Shown here: positions 9,093 through 18,586 of the stretch, in pieces
Numbering within the stretch: position 1 is the first letter of the stretch
Layout of the letters: every line of letters starts with the position of its first letter
Source of the DNA: Dryocola clanedunensis subsp. sulfonylureivorans
GTDB lineage: Bacteria; Pseudomonadota; Gammaproteobacteria; Enterobacterales; Enterobacteriaceae
Assembly: GCF_016756775.1 (NCBI RefSeq)
Contig: NZ_JAERMU010000009.1
Span: 62,001-126,000 of the forward strand
Length of the DNA stretch: 64,000 nucleotides
Reading direction: 5' to 3'
Program-made: the position numbers and the translations under genes
Notes under the pieces: generated by a model
What the model was told of the DNA's origin: nothing
Seen by the model: only the letters and a program-made list of their open reading frames with translations
Database searches by the model: none

Positions 9093-9410
9093 TTAACCCC
9101 AGAGTTTTTCCAGTTCGTACAGCTGGCGGCTCTCTTCCTGCATGACGTGGACGATCACTTCGCCCAAATCAACGACGATCCAGTCTGTGGCAGTAATTCC
9201 CTTCACGCTCAGCGCGTCGATCCCTTCTTTACGAGAGGATTCAACAACGTGCTCAGCAATAGACATGACGTGGCGATTCGAAGTACCGGTGCAAACGATC
9301 ATGCAATCGGTGATGCTTGATTTGCCCTGTACATCAATCTTAATGATGTCCTGGCCTTTAAGGTCGTCGATCTTGTCGACGATGAAATCCTGGAGTGCTT
9401 TACCCTGCAA
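9093..9410 (-). CDS. rsfS: Ribosomal silencing factor RsfS
   Basis: 105-residue Iojap/DUF143 protein that binds uL14 on the 50S subunit and blocks 30S joining in starvation. Family markers seen are the [19 protein letters not shown] strand region, CTGTSNRHV and [15 protein letters not shown]. The length equals E. coli RsfS. It is the first gene of the rsfS-rlmH-mrdA-mrdB-rlpA series. The 246-base gap upstream (9411-9656) is the likely promoter region; it also contains a GGTGGG/CCCACC inverted repeat at 9518-9536 without a T run. Confidence 0.96.
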
Positions 9411-9656
9411 GTGTTCCCCCTGGGAGAATTAAAGTGTTCGATGTCGCCCGTAACTGAATGCCATTATACCTGTCAGGCGTGTCGTTAGTTTCCGAAAAAT
9501 GGCTGCGGGGCGCTCAAGGTGGGCTATCATCCCACCGAGTGACCTGTTTTGCATCGCCATTTTTGTAAAACTATTTTTGGTAAGTCATGCATACGGGCAG
9601 GAAATTATGGCAGCGGAGCATAACAGCCTGAGGGGCAGAGTCAATGGCTGGTCGCT

Positions 9657-15986: not shown

Positions 15987-18218
15987 TTAGCCTTTAGTCG
16001 CAACGATTTTGATGTTGATAATCGATGCAACGTTTGGAGGGATGCTGCCGATAATCCCCTCTTTCCCATAAGCCAGCTCAGGTGGAACATACAGCGTGGC
16101 TGAACCGTCTGTGGAGAGCTGAACAAGAACTTCCTGCATCTCCTTGGGCATTTCATAAACAAAATTACTGATGCTTTCATCCCGGGAGATGACTTGCCCA
16201 TTGCTCAATGTTTCAGTCAGTAGCGCCTTAACTGAGCTTTTTTGCGTGATTTTTGGCCCATTCCCTTTAGATTCGATGACGTAAATCGCCCCTTTTTTGG
16301 TTTTTTTCGCCCCATCCATTTTCAAGGCGTTTGCGAGTACTTCCTGAGTGACACGTCCATTTTTCTTACCTTCAGACTCAATCCTGTTTTTTATCGAATT
16401 GTTGATGGCGGAGAGGACTTTCCCCATCTGGGATTGATCTAACTGCTGACGACCTTTCAGTCTGTCGACGGTACCTTGTAAGAATTCCGGAGTGCCGAGC
16501 ACATTTCTGTTCATCGGTGCAATCACGCCACTCTTCTCAACGCTTGCAGCAAAGTAATAGCCTAATGTATAGGCCTCGCGAGCCTCCGCGCTGCTGTTGC
16601 CGTTAACAGTGACGGTATCCACTGAAGCCTTAGCCTTTTTAGCACTGTCTAAACTGGTTTCCGTATCCTTCAGCTTTTTCTGTAATGACGCCAGTGTTTC
16701 TTCAGCTTCTTTCTGGCTGGCTTCGTAAGACTTCACCTGGGCCTGGGCCGCTGATAGTTGCTTTGTTAGCTCTGCATTATCCGTGCTCTGCTTGTTATCC
16801 TGAGCTGTGTTTCGAGCTGCCAGCTCAGTTTTATCTTTGATAGCAAGCTGCGTTGCAACCTGTGCTTCGCTAAGCTGTTTCTGCAGAGCGGTGATCTCAA
16901 CGACTTGCTGCTTTTTCAAACTATCTAACTGCGATTCAAGCTCAGTCCGGGCGCTGGCCGCGAGCTTTGCTTCTTCCTGCGATTTCAGCAGCTGGCTTTT
17001 CAGCTCGCTGGTGCTGGCACCCTGCTGTTTCTGGAGGGTTGCGAGCTGGGCGGTGAGGGTGGCATTTTTCGCCTCGGCGCTTTTTGCCGCGTCCTGGAAA
17101 GACTTAAGCTGCTGGCTCAGCGTGCTGGCTTCTGCGGTCTGCTGCTTCGTGAGCTTATCAAGCTTAGCCTGCAGCTCAGTCCGGGCGCTGGCCGCGAGCT
17201 TTGCTTCTTCCTGCGATTTCAGCAGCTGGCTTTTCAGCTCGCTGGTGCTGGCACCCTGCTGTTTCTGGAGGGTTGCGAGCTGGGCGGTGAGGGTGGCATT
17301 TTTCGCCTCGGCGCTTTTTGCCGCGTCCTGGAAAGACTTAAGCTGCTGGTTCAGCGCGCTGGCTTCGGTGGTCTGCTGCTTTGTGAGCTTATCAAGCTTA
17401 GCCTGCAGCTCAGTCCGGGCGCTGGCCGCGACCCTTGCATCCTCCTGCGATTTAAGCAGCTGGCTTTTCAGCTCGCTGGAGCTGGCACCCTGCTGTTTCT
17501 GGAGGGTTGCGAGCTGGGCGGTGAGGGTGGCATTTTTCGCCTCAGCGCTTTTTGCCGCGTCCTGGAAAGACTTAAGCTGCTGGTTCAGCGCGCTGGCTTC
17601 TGCGGTCTGCTGATTTGTGAGCTTATCAAGCTTAGCCTGCAGCTCAGTCCGGGCGCTGGCCGCGACCCTTGCATCCTCCTGCGATTTAAGCAGCTGGCTT
17701 TTCAGATCGCTGGAGCTGGCCCCCTGCTGTTTCTGGAGGGTTGCAAGCTGAGCGGTGAGGTTGGCATTTTTCGCCTCGGCGCTTTTTGCCGCGTCCTGGA
17801 AAGACTTAAGCTGCTGGTTCAGCGCGCTGGCTTCTGCGGTCTGCTGCTTTAAAAGTTTATCAAGATGTATGATTCGCTGTTCAGCAACGATTTTGTCTTT
17901 CTCAACTGCAGAACTGCTGGCTGCTGGCTGAGTCGCCTGTCTGGATTTGGCATTTGTATGCCCCCCGGCTGACGATTTCTTTGTATCGGTATTTTTGACG
18001 GTTTTATTTATCGGTTTTGAGCTTGTCGCCGTAGCACTATTTTTGGGATTTTGGGTATCAGAGGAGCCTGCTGACTCAGTAAAGACTGTTGAGGCCTCAT
18101 TGCCAATAAGGCCATCCTGGCGCAGGGTATTAAGCATTTCAAAACTGTCATCAGCCCGAGCGCAAAAAGCTGTTATCGAACCCAGGAGAAAGACGATGCG
18201 AAAATACTTGGGTTTCAT
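15987..18218 (-). CDS. Secreted coiled-coil repeat protein with FKBP-type C-terminal domain
   Basis: 743 residues in four parts. A signal peptide (MKPKYFRIVFLLGS...CARA|DDSF) predicts export. A Ser/Thr/Lys-rich linker covers about 25-105. A long coiled coil (about 110-530) contains four near-identical 78-residue units at 122-433, then a decayed fifth. The C-terminus (from about 545) resembles Mip/FkpA-type FKBPs: a helical FKBP_N region (YTLGYYFAASVEKSG) then an FKBP fold ending LYVPPELAYGKEG...GSIPPN. The Tyr, Phe and Asp of the usual active site (HYTG, FDSS) are replaced by Leu, Ile and Ser, and the VIPGW element is lost, so isomerase activity is doubtful. The gene overlaps the lipoprotein gene by four bases. 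It replaces the ybeQ-rihA block of E. coli. Function unknown. Confidence 0.85.
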   Translation of the reverse strand: MKPKYFRIVFLLGSITAFCARADDSFEMLNTLRQDGLIGNEASTVFTESAGSSDTQNPKNSATATSSKPINKTVKNTDTKKSSAGGHTNAKSRQATQPAASSSAVEKDKIVAEQRIIHLDKLLKQQTAEASALNQQLKSFQDAAKSAEAKNANLTAQLATLQKQQGASSSDLKSQLLKSQEDARVAASARTELQAKLDKLTNQQTAEASALNQQLKSFQDAAKSAEAKNATLTAQLATLQKQQGASSSELKSQLLKSQEDARVAASARTELQAKLDKLTKQQTTEASALNQQLKSFQDAAKSAEAKNATLTAQLATLQKQQGASTSELKSQLLKSQEEAKLAASARTELQAKLDKLTKQQTAEASTLSQQLKSFQDAAKSAEAKNATLTAQLATLQKQQGASTSELKSQLLKSQEEAKLAASARTELESQLDSLKKQQVVEITALQKQLSEAQVATQLAIKDKTELAARNTAQDNKQSTDNAELTKQLSAAQAQVKSYEASQKEAEETLASLQKKLKDTETSLDSAKKAKASVDTVTVNGNSSAEAREAYTLGYYFAASVEKSGVIAPMNRNVLGTPEFLQGTVDRLKGRQQLDQSQMGKVLSAINNSIKNRIESEGKKNGRVTQEVLANALKMDGAKKTKKGAIYVIESKGNGPKITQKSSVKALLTETLSNGQVISRDESISNFVYEMPKEMQEVLVQLSTDGSATLYVPPELAYGKEGIIGSIPPNVASIINIKIVATKG
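16920..17855 (-). repeat. Four tandem 234-bp coding repeats
   Basis: Four in-frame copies of a 234-bp unit (78 codons) inside the FKBP-like gene. The same landmark (GCGAGC or GCAAGC) recurs at 17041, 17275, 17509 and 17743, exactly 234 bases apart. Copies differ by only a few bases, mostly at the unit ends and in the outermost copies, which implies recent expansion or ongoing homogenisation. Each unit codes QQTAEASALNQQLKSFQD-type heptads. Copy number is expected to vary between strains. Confidence 0.95.
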
Positions 18219-18586
18219 ATATCAATAATCTCTTGTCGACGCTTTTCCATGTTCTGAAATACTGCATCATTCACACGTGAACAAACCACTTTGAGTTTGT
18301 TTGCAATCTCTGCAGCCATTACGTCTGAAGCATCTTTGCTGATAATAGGTTTATTTTTGATATAAACCTCATAGCTTTTATTAATTTTATTGAACTGGCT
18401 CAGGTAAAGATCGTAGGAGGATTTATCCAGTGTTTGCAGTGCGGAAAGTTCGTTGCGGCACTGTTGCTGATTTGTTGGCATTCCCGCCGCCACTTTGGTT
18501 GGTGCAACGAGGGGCTTTCTCGCGCATGATGTCACACTGACTGCTGCCATGAGCAACAAAGAAACCTGCAGAGTTTTAGAAATCAT
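18215..18586 (-). CDS. Small putative lipoprotein upstream of the FKBP-like gene
   Basis: 123 residues with a lipoprotein signal peptide: a basic start, a hydrophobic run and VTSC, placing the lipidated cysteine at residue 21. The mature part is mostly helical and holds two further cysteines (QQCRNEL and KVVCSRV) that could form a disulfide. I do not recognise the family. It overlaps the start of the FKBP-like gene by four bases (ATGA), so the two are almost certainly co-translated. The region just upstream (18587-18900) is strongly AT-rich and contains no gene; a promoter probably lies there. AT-richness suggests horizontal acquisition. Confidence 0.75.
   Translation of the reverse strand: MISKTLQVSLLLMAAVSVTSCARKPLVAPTKVAAGMPTNQQQCRNELSALQTLDKSSYDLYLSQFNKINKSYEVYIKNKPIISKDASDVMAAEIANKLKVVCSRVNDAVFQNMEKRRQEIIDI

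Follow-up and report, generated by a model that had tools for sequence, protein, structure and literature searches.

The window analysed here, a stretch of DNA of 64,000 nucleotides, carries a two-gene unit in which a small lipoprotein is coupled to an exported rod protein ending in an FKBP head. The coupled pair is conserved among related genomes, and the head has lost its active-site residues. The lipoprotein family has exchanged the rod for other partners, and the autotransporters linked to it that we examined lack LysM domains and display a hydrophobic segment followed by a linker behind the signal peptide. As a tentative but preferred reading, the unit may form a non-catalytic FKBP arm docked at the outer membrane, which would hold proteins destined for the surface.

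Both genes are located on the minus strand. In accordance with the earlier note, open reading frames of 123 residues (18215-18586) and 743 residues (15987-18218) overlap by four bases at 18215-18218. The sequence of the lipobox reads V18-T19-S20-C21. The larger protein is composed of a signal-peptide-like start, a Ser/Thr/Lys-rich stretch, a repeat stalk, and the FKBP_N and FKBP_C domains, in this order. The features of the locus are as follows.

18215..18586, minus strand: lipoprotein gene (P0002), 123 aa; lipobox Cys21, further conserved Cys43 and Cys102, predicted three-helix bundle at residues 40-122
15987..18218, minus strand: gene of the exported rod protein (P0001), 743 aa, with the pseudo-FKBP head at the C-terminus
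18215..18218, minus strand: stop/start codon overlap of 4 bp, identical in 41/66 adjacent pairs
18153..18218, minus strand: predicted rod signal peptide, residues 1-22, cut between ARA and DD by a simple rule in our own script, not by a dedicated predictor
18081..18152, minus strand: hydrophobic segment of the mature rod N-terminus, residues 23-46, proposed as the tag that the lipoprotein may bind
16939..17864, minus strand: four tandem 234-bp repeats encoding the stalk (78-residue unit), from repeat analysis
16281..16583, minus strand: FKBP_N domain, residues 546-646, above the Pfam gathering cut-off
16008..16250, minus strand: FKBP_C domain, residues 657-737, above the Pfam gathering cut-off, without the canonical active-site residues
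15920..18906, no strand: inserted block, in place of which the aligned flanks of the congeners (5/5) are 36-47 bp apart

One of the flanking reading frames encodes a zinc-ribbon protein (NCBIfam PRK11032), the gene of which we take to be ybeL. The other encodes an amino-acid ABC-transporter ATPase, presumably gltL, whose best NCBIfam match was GlnQ, below its cut-off; leuS lies beyond. According to the alignment, the two flanks adjoin in all five congeners compared at the distance given above, whereas about 2,980 bp separate them in the window. The two-gene unit is a block of approx. 3 kb that was gained as a whole, or lost as a whole by the congeners, between convergent genes. A 'distant' blastn search of E. 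coli genomes revealed no match to the DNA of the unit. Other genera carry the same type of pair elsewhere in the chromosome, for example Phytobacter ursingii, P. massiliensis, P. diazotrophicus and a Kosakonia.

The earlier note had described the larger product as a coiled coil with a C-terminal FKBP-type domain, and both parts were recovered: hydrophobic residues recur in the rod with a period of 3.54 residues, and both FKBP domains scored above their Pfam cut-offs. The stalk contains 4.0 copies of the 234-bp unit with 96% matches. Rod relatives span about 300 to 1600 residues; many of them exhibit near-identical tandem repeats of varying unit length, and others are free of repeats. Proline-rich stalks that are not coiled-coil-like occur at L177:8705-11164 (13.9% Pro, repeat lags of 91 and 104 residues) and L180:6304-8265 (8.9% Pro, repeat lags of 13 and 26 residues). 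With a helix rise of 0.15 nm per residue, the stalk of the window (~420 residues) would measure ~60 nm if it formed one continuous helix; the periplasm is usually 20-30 nm wide.

The predicted structure of the head (mean pLDDT 78, five sequences) is that of FkpA/Mip proteins and matched Legionella Mip and E. coli FkpA with a best E-value of ~1e-13; the fold of the head is already known. Residues of the pocket were scored, in FKBP12 numbering, over 75 FKBP reading frames including some fragments. Neither Tyr26 nor Asp37 was retained in any of them (0/75 each), and Phe36 and Trp59 were each retained in a single one. Ile56 was lost throughout (0/75; Pro in 72) and Phe99 was found once, while Tyr82 was present in 69/75. 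The window head carries Leu, Ile, Ser and Met at the positions of Tyr26, Phe36, Asp37 and Trp59. The rod shares the FKBP_N and FKBP_C domains of the FkpA/Mip group and is devoid of its canonical active-site residues. Preservation of the fold and of part of the pocket together with loss of the catalytic side fits a binding module, which is consistent with the binding rather than catalytic head suggested before. The lost residues likewise fit a head that would not be a normal enzyme.

We scanned 295 genomes from the same family with a profile built on the FKBP part, the lowest listed matches being ordinary FkpA. The rod subfamily was sampled by the best 62 matches (>173 bits) and three long reading frames among the 150 listed, giving 65 rods in 53 genomes. 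Judged by coordinates, a lipoprotein gene was located directly upstream on the same strand in 52 of these 65. Reading the 13 exceptions singly assigned three to contig edges, two to a split frame with the lipoprotein present, one to a head-to-head arrangement and seven to rods without a lipoprotein gene, three of which adjoin an usher (L114, L116, L120). When the three contig-edge genes were set aside and the two split-frame genes counted in, the lipoprotein gene was directly upstream in 54 of the 62 assessable listed rods.

A second count started from the neighbourhoods of 150 listed lipoproteins and yielded 75 FKBP reading frames, 66 of them adjacent (at most 600 bp away, lipoprotein upstream, same strand). 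The overlap was exactly 4 bp in 41 and 1 bp in four of the 66 adjacent pairs. Pairing of rod and lipoprotein exceeds chance. The earlier note would be refuted by two genes that are usually apart, and this applies in one direction only: the rod is seldom found without the lipoprotein, but 83 of the 150 listed lipoproteins have no FKBP rod. At L113 and L115 the FKBP frame is split and the lipoprotein intact, which may point to decay or to a change in the repeat stalk.

The lipoprotein family is present in 101 of the 295 genomes. Prediction from 13 sequences gave, with high confidence, a mature domain of three helices (40-53, 55-81 and 84-122), and every one of 43 aligned members has Cys21, Cys43 and Cys102. 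None of the Pfam and NCBIfam families tested matched the lipoprotein, and structure and profile comparison gave no clear solved relative of the mature fold. Among 153 family reading frames, 145 have a recognised lipobox and eight do not; aspartate at position +2 after the lipobox cysteine occurs in 0/145. The window protein, with Cys21-Ala22, has the lipobox type of outer-membrane lipoproteins. From the absent +2 aspartate we infer that the lipoprotein is probably located in the outer membrane.

Neighbours of the 150 listed lipoproteins fell into several classes. An FKBP rod lies within 600 bp of 67 of them, always on the same strand; the corresponding number of reading-frame pairs is 66 because lipoprotein L138 gave no countable frame. 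Within 3.5 kb of 27 further listed lipoproteins there is an inverse autotransporter, whereas five of the 150 are near an usher only and three near type IVb pilus genes. No partner of the kinds sought was detected for 48/150, including the two with a split FKBP gene (L113, L115). Expected numbers were derived from per-genome counts, which for ushers were counts of first-look candidates. On this basis, autotransporters neighbour 27 of the 83 listed lipoproteins without FKBP rod versus 0.67 expected (P 1e-35). Ushers were found within 8.5 kb of 17/67 listed pairs versus 3.4 expected (P 2e-8), two of the 17 being also near an inverse autotransporter, and were not enriched near the 83 other listed lipoproteins (5 versus 4.1 expected). 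The pair of the window, like 50 of the 67 listed, has no usher within 8.5 kb.

In a lipoprotein tree, calculated by a quick method from few columns, rooted at the midpoint and containing starred branches and long-branch warnings, the clade of the window and the type-IVb-pilus members L040 and L044 (Rahnella) nest among mostly autotransporter-linked lipoproteins, with two changes between FKBP and autotransporter. This nesting argues that the family has changed partners.

Several loci illustrate the range of neighbourhoods. In the window's own genome (contig C2, L007:6029-14182), two more family lipoproteins flank a gene for an inverse autotransporter of 2366 residues, and a gene for a putative winged-helix ToxR-like regulator adjoins the second of them. 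A lipoprotein gene upstream of a type IVb pilus cluster was observed at L098, L102 and L104 (Rahnella) and at L044:8980-14298, where Pfam identified a TcpA-like pilin and a CofB-like minor pilin besides a weak secretin match. Another such cluster, in a 2.7-Mb genome (L091:164-865 and 9281-9622), carries the lipoprotein gene at one of its ends, ~8.4 kb from a short FKBP-like gene. An inverse autotransporter (IAT_beta plus Ig repeats) follows the pair downstream in a chaperone-usher locus at L198:2791-5265 and L170:3550-5910, so that a single locus can hold more than one type of partner. One branch of the lipoprotein family (L084, L089, L178, L184-L187) has neither FKBP nor autotransporter neighbours; at L084 the lipoprotein gene is followed by those of a Sel1-repeat protein and of a periplasmic binding protein, and genes of the same clusters are present at L089. 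A PglL-type O-oligosaccharyltransferase (Wzy_C, Wzy_C_2, PglL_A) is encoded at L075:9894-11684, and a local profile found PglL-related frames also at L080, L087, L094, L138, L140, L153 and L198. A PglL-type gene is near the pair at 8/67 listed places, seven of which are also near an usher, and suggests glycosylated pili or rods.

YeeJ has a LysM domain that binds peptidoglycan and contributes to localisation at the outer membrane (PMC5595812). We compared the N-termini of 20 autotransporters linked to the lipoprotein (27 reading frames minus five split-gene pieces and two FKBP-linked ones) with those of 20 hand-picked unlinked autotransporters, all more than 20 kb away from any listed lipoprotein. 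LysM was detected (E up to 0.1) in 0/20 linked versus 13/20 unlinked N-termini (Fisher P 1.3e-5). As both sets contain near copies, forming 13 linked and 16 unlinked clusters at 70% identity, the comparison was repeated by cluster and gave 0/13 versus 10/16, LysM being allotted to the rows by visual inspection. In the linked autotransporters, a short hydrophobic segment follows the signal peptide and is succeeded by a polar Pro/Ser-rich linker. The residues LIVMFYW were richer at positions 3-22 than at positions 25-54 in 20/20 linked autotransporters and 53/62 FKBP rods versus 7/20 unlinked autotransporters; the signal-peptide cut underlying these positions follows a simple rule that plainly failed for a few sequences, e.g. 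L096, L126 and L146. The layout and LysM contrasts are not independent, because LysM itself often fills that stretch in unlinked autotransporters. The proposed tag is a pattern of composition and has no shared motif. Since its N-terminal hydrophobic segment resembles that of the linked autotransporters, it is plausible that the rod is anchored via the lipoprotein. The simplest joint reading would be that the lipoprotein grips the N-terminal segment of autotransporters and FKBP rods alike and so takes over the anchoring role of LysM.

In the mechanism we favour, the lipoprotein would serve as a dock in the outer membrane, its three-helix bundle gripping a short helix with which the mature partner begins. 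The partner would be a long helical rod whose FkpA/Mip-type head may have lost proline isomerisation and retained binding. Docked in this way, the rod could act as a tethered holding arm for client proteins that travel to the cell surface or stay there, which would connect it with the assembly of surface organelles. The excess of ushers near the pairs and of autotransporters near the other lipoproteins speaks for such a link to the surface. Lipoproteins of the same family may dock other surface proteins by a similar N-terminal tag, above all inverse autotransporters without LysM. The 48 of 150 listed lipoproteins without a sought partner and the 7/62 rods without a lipoprotein gene beside them count against this mechanism, as do the 50/67 listed pairs far from ushers and the missing usher enrichment near lipoproteins without FKBP rod. 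A broader version, which we consider rather doubtful, makes the family a general outer-membrane receptor for secreted proteins of any kind, such as pseudo-FKBP rods, inverse autotransporters and a type IVb pilus component. A short helix behind the signal peptide would extend the three-helix bundle of the lipoprotein to four helices and fix the protein at the outer membrane, dock and LysM would have been swapped for each other, and a chaperone lineage would have become an arm tuned in length by its repeats through acquisition of the tag.

Other readings differ in what they make of the stalk and the neighbours. As the main rival, the rod might instead be an exported surface fibre of the periscope type, anchored or exported by the lipoprotein, with repeats setting its reach and a pseudo-FKBP tip binding targets outside the cell. 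Near-identical tandem repeats and lengths of ~300-1600 residues resemble the surface stalks described in PMC9704523, and next to the lipoprotein an FKBP rod stands where other loci have an autotransporter or a pilus. A ~60-nm stalk is also a poor fit for the periplasm, and repeats and lengths are better accounted for by a fibre than by a docked arm. Such a fibre, however, is left without an export route, as no recurrent outer-membrane exporter was found among the immediate neighbours of the listed pairs at orphan loci; its head comes from a periplasmic chaperone lineage, and the proposed tag precedes the barrel in autotransporters. The region before the barrel of inverse autotransporters is on the periplasmic side. 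On balance, export of the rod as a fibre seems unlikely to us. The same stalk data weigh on the periplasmic ruler or tether of the earlier note, which would span the envelope at a fixed distance. A lipoprotein at one end, a folded head at the other and a coiled-coil-like rod between them would suit this role. Nevertheless, a fixed-length ruler is disfavoured by the several-fold variation in stalk length among relatives, two of which (L177 and L180) switch to Pro-rich repeats, and a ~60-nm helix exceeds the 20-30 nm of the periplasm; the ruler is therefore very improbable.

The usher neighbours would be explained if the pair served chaperone-usher pili only, as an additional periplasmic factor for assembly or quality control whose orphan copies act in trans on pili encoded elsewhere. 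Further points in favour of this idea, besides the excess of ushers near the pairs, are as follows: rods without a lipoprotein gene adjoin an usher in 3/7 cases, the pair at L129 is situated inside a pilus locus (usher Pfam-confirmed, pilin and tip labels putative), and LuxR-cluster genes, one cluster member of which was Pfam-tested, adjoin 13/66 pairs. However, 50/67 listed pairs have no usher within 8.5 kb, and the lipoprotein accompanies autotransporters and type IVb pili as well, which makes an exclusive role in such pili improbable.

Among known systems, the rod protein has the FKBP_N plus FKBP_C architecture and the fold in common with periplasmic FKBPs of the FkpA/Mip type. In contrast to these, it spans ~300-1600 residues, carries a stalk in front, has a dedicated lipoprotein partner and lacks Tyr26 and Asp37 in 75/75 frames. 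LysM inverse autotransporters such as intimin and YeeJ resemble it in having a long stalk of repeats and an anchor in the periplasm at the N-terminus, and inverse autotransporters without LysM share the lipoprotein neighbour with FKBP rods. Unlike intimin and YeeJ, FKBP rods have no beta-barrel, and a protein dock would anchor them in place of peptidoglycan. A PulS/OutS pilotin is a small lipoprotein of helical fold, which binds its partner at a terminal segment. The lipoprotein is likewise small and helical and is proposed to bind a terminal segment; the OutS profile matched it weakly (E 0.14) and only at profile positions 4-44, the signal region, and in contrast to pilotins a type IV pilus label was found at only 3/150 listed lipoprotein loci. 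In the type 9 secretion translocon, an FKBP-type PPI is part of an outer-membrane export complex, and 6h3j and 6h3i were among the Foldseek matches to the head; the architecture of the rod is different.

Highly identical tandem repeats form a rod with a terminal domain in Periscope Proteins, as they do in the window rod with its 4.0 copies at 96% matches; not all relatives have such repeats. According to a review (PMC9704523), Periscope stalks are single-chain surface repeats that fold individually, and multimeric coiled-coil stalks as in trimeric autotransporters are excluded. The window rod differs from Periscope Proteins as reviewed in its coiled-coil-like stalk. In the open-access literature searched, neither a description nor a function of the lipoprotein-FKBP-rod pair was found. 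Three traits seem to be undescribed there: a lipoprotein dedicated to the rod, a repeat stalk that ends in an inactive-looking head, and an exchange of partners involving autotransporters without LysM.

If docking holds true, it would name a job for a lipoprotein family that is present in 101/295 genomes and lies outside the tested Pfam and NCBIfam families, and it would offer an explanation for the retention of LysM-less autotransporters in the envelope. The head would be a natural example of an FKBP converted from an enzyme to a binding module. The N-terminal segment would be a short tag that could be transferred to other proteins to position them at the outer membrane, and what determines the stalk length of envelope proteins would become testable in a small two-gene system.
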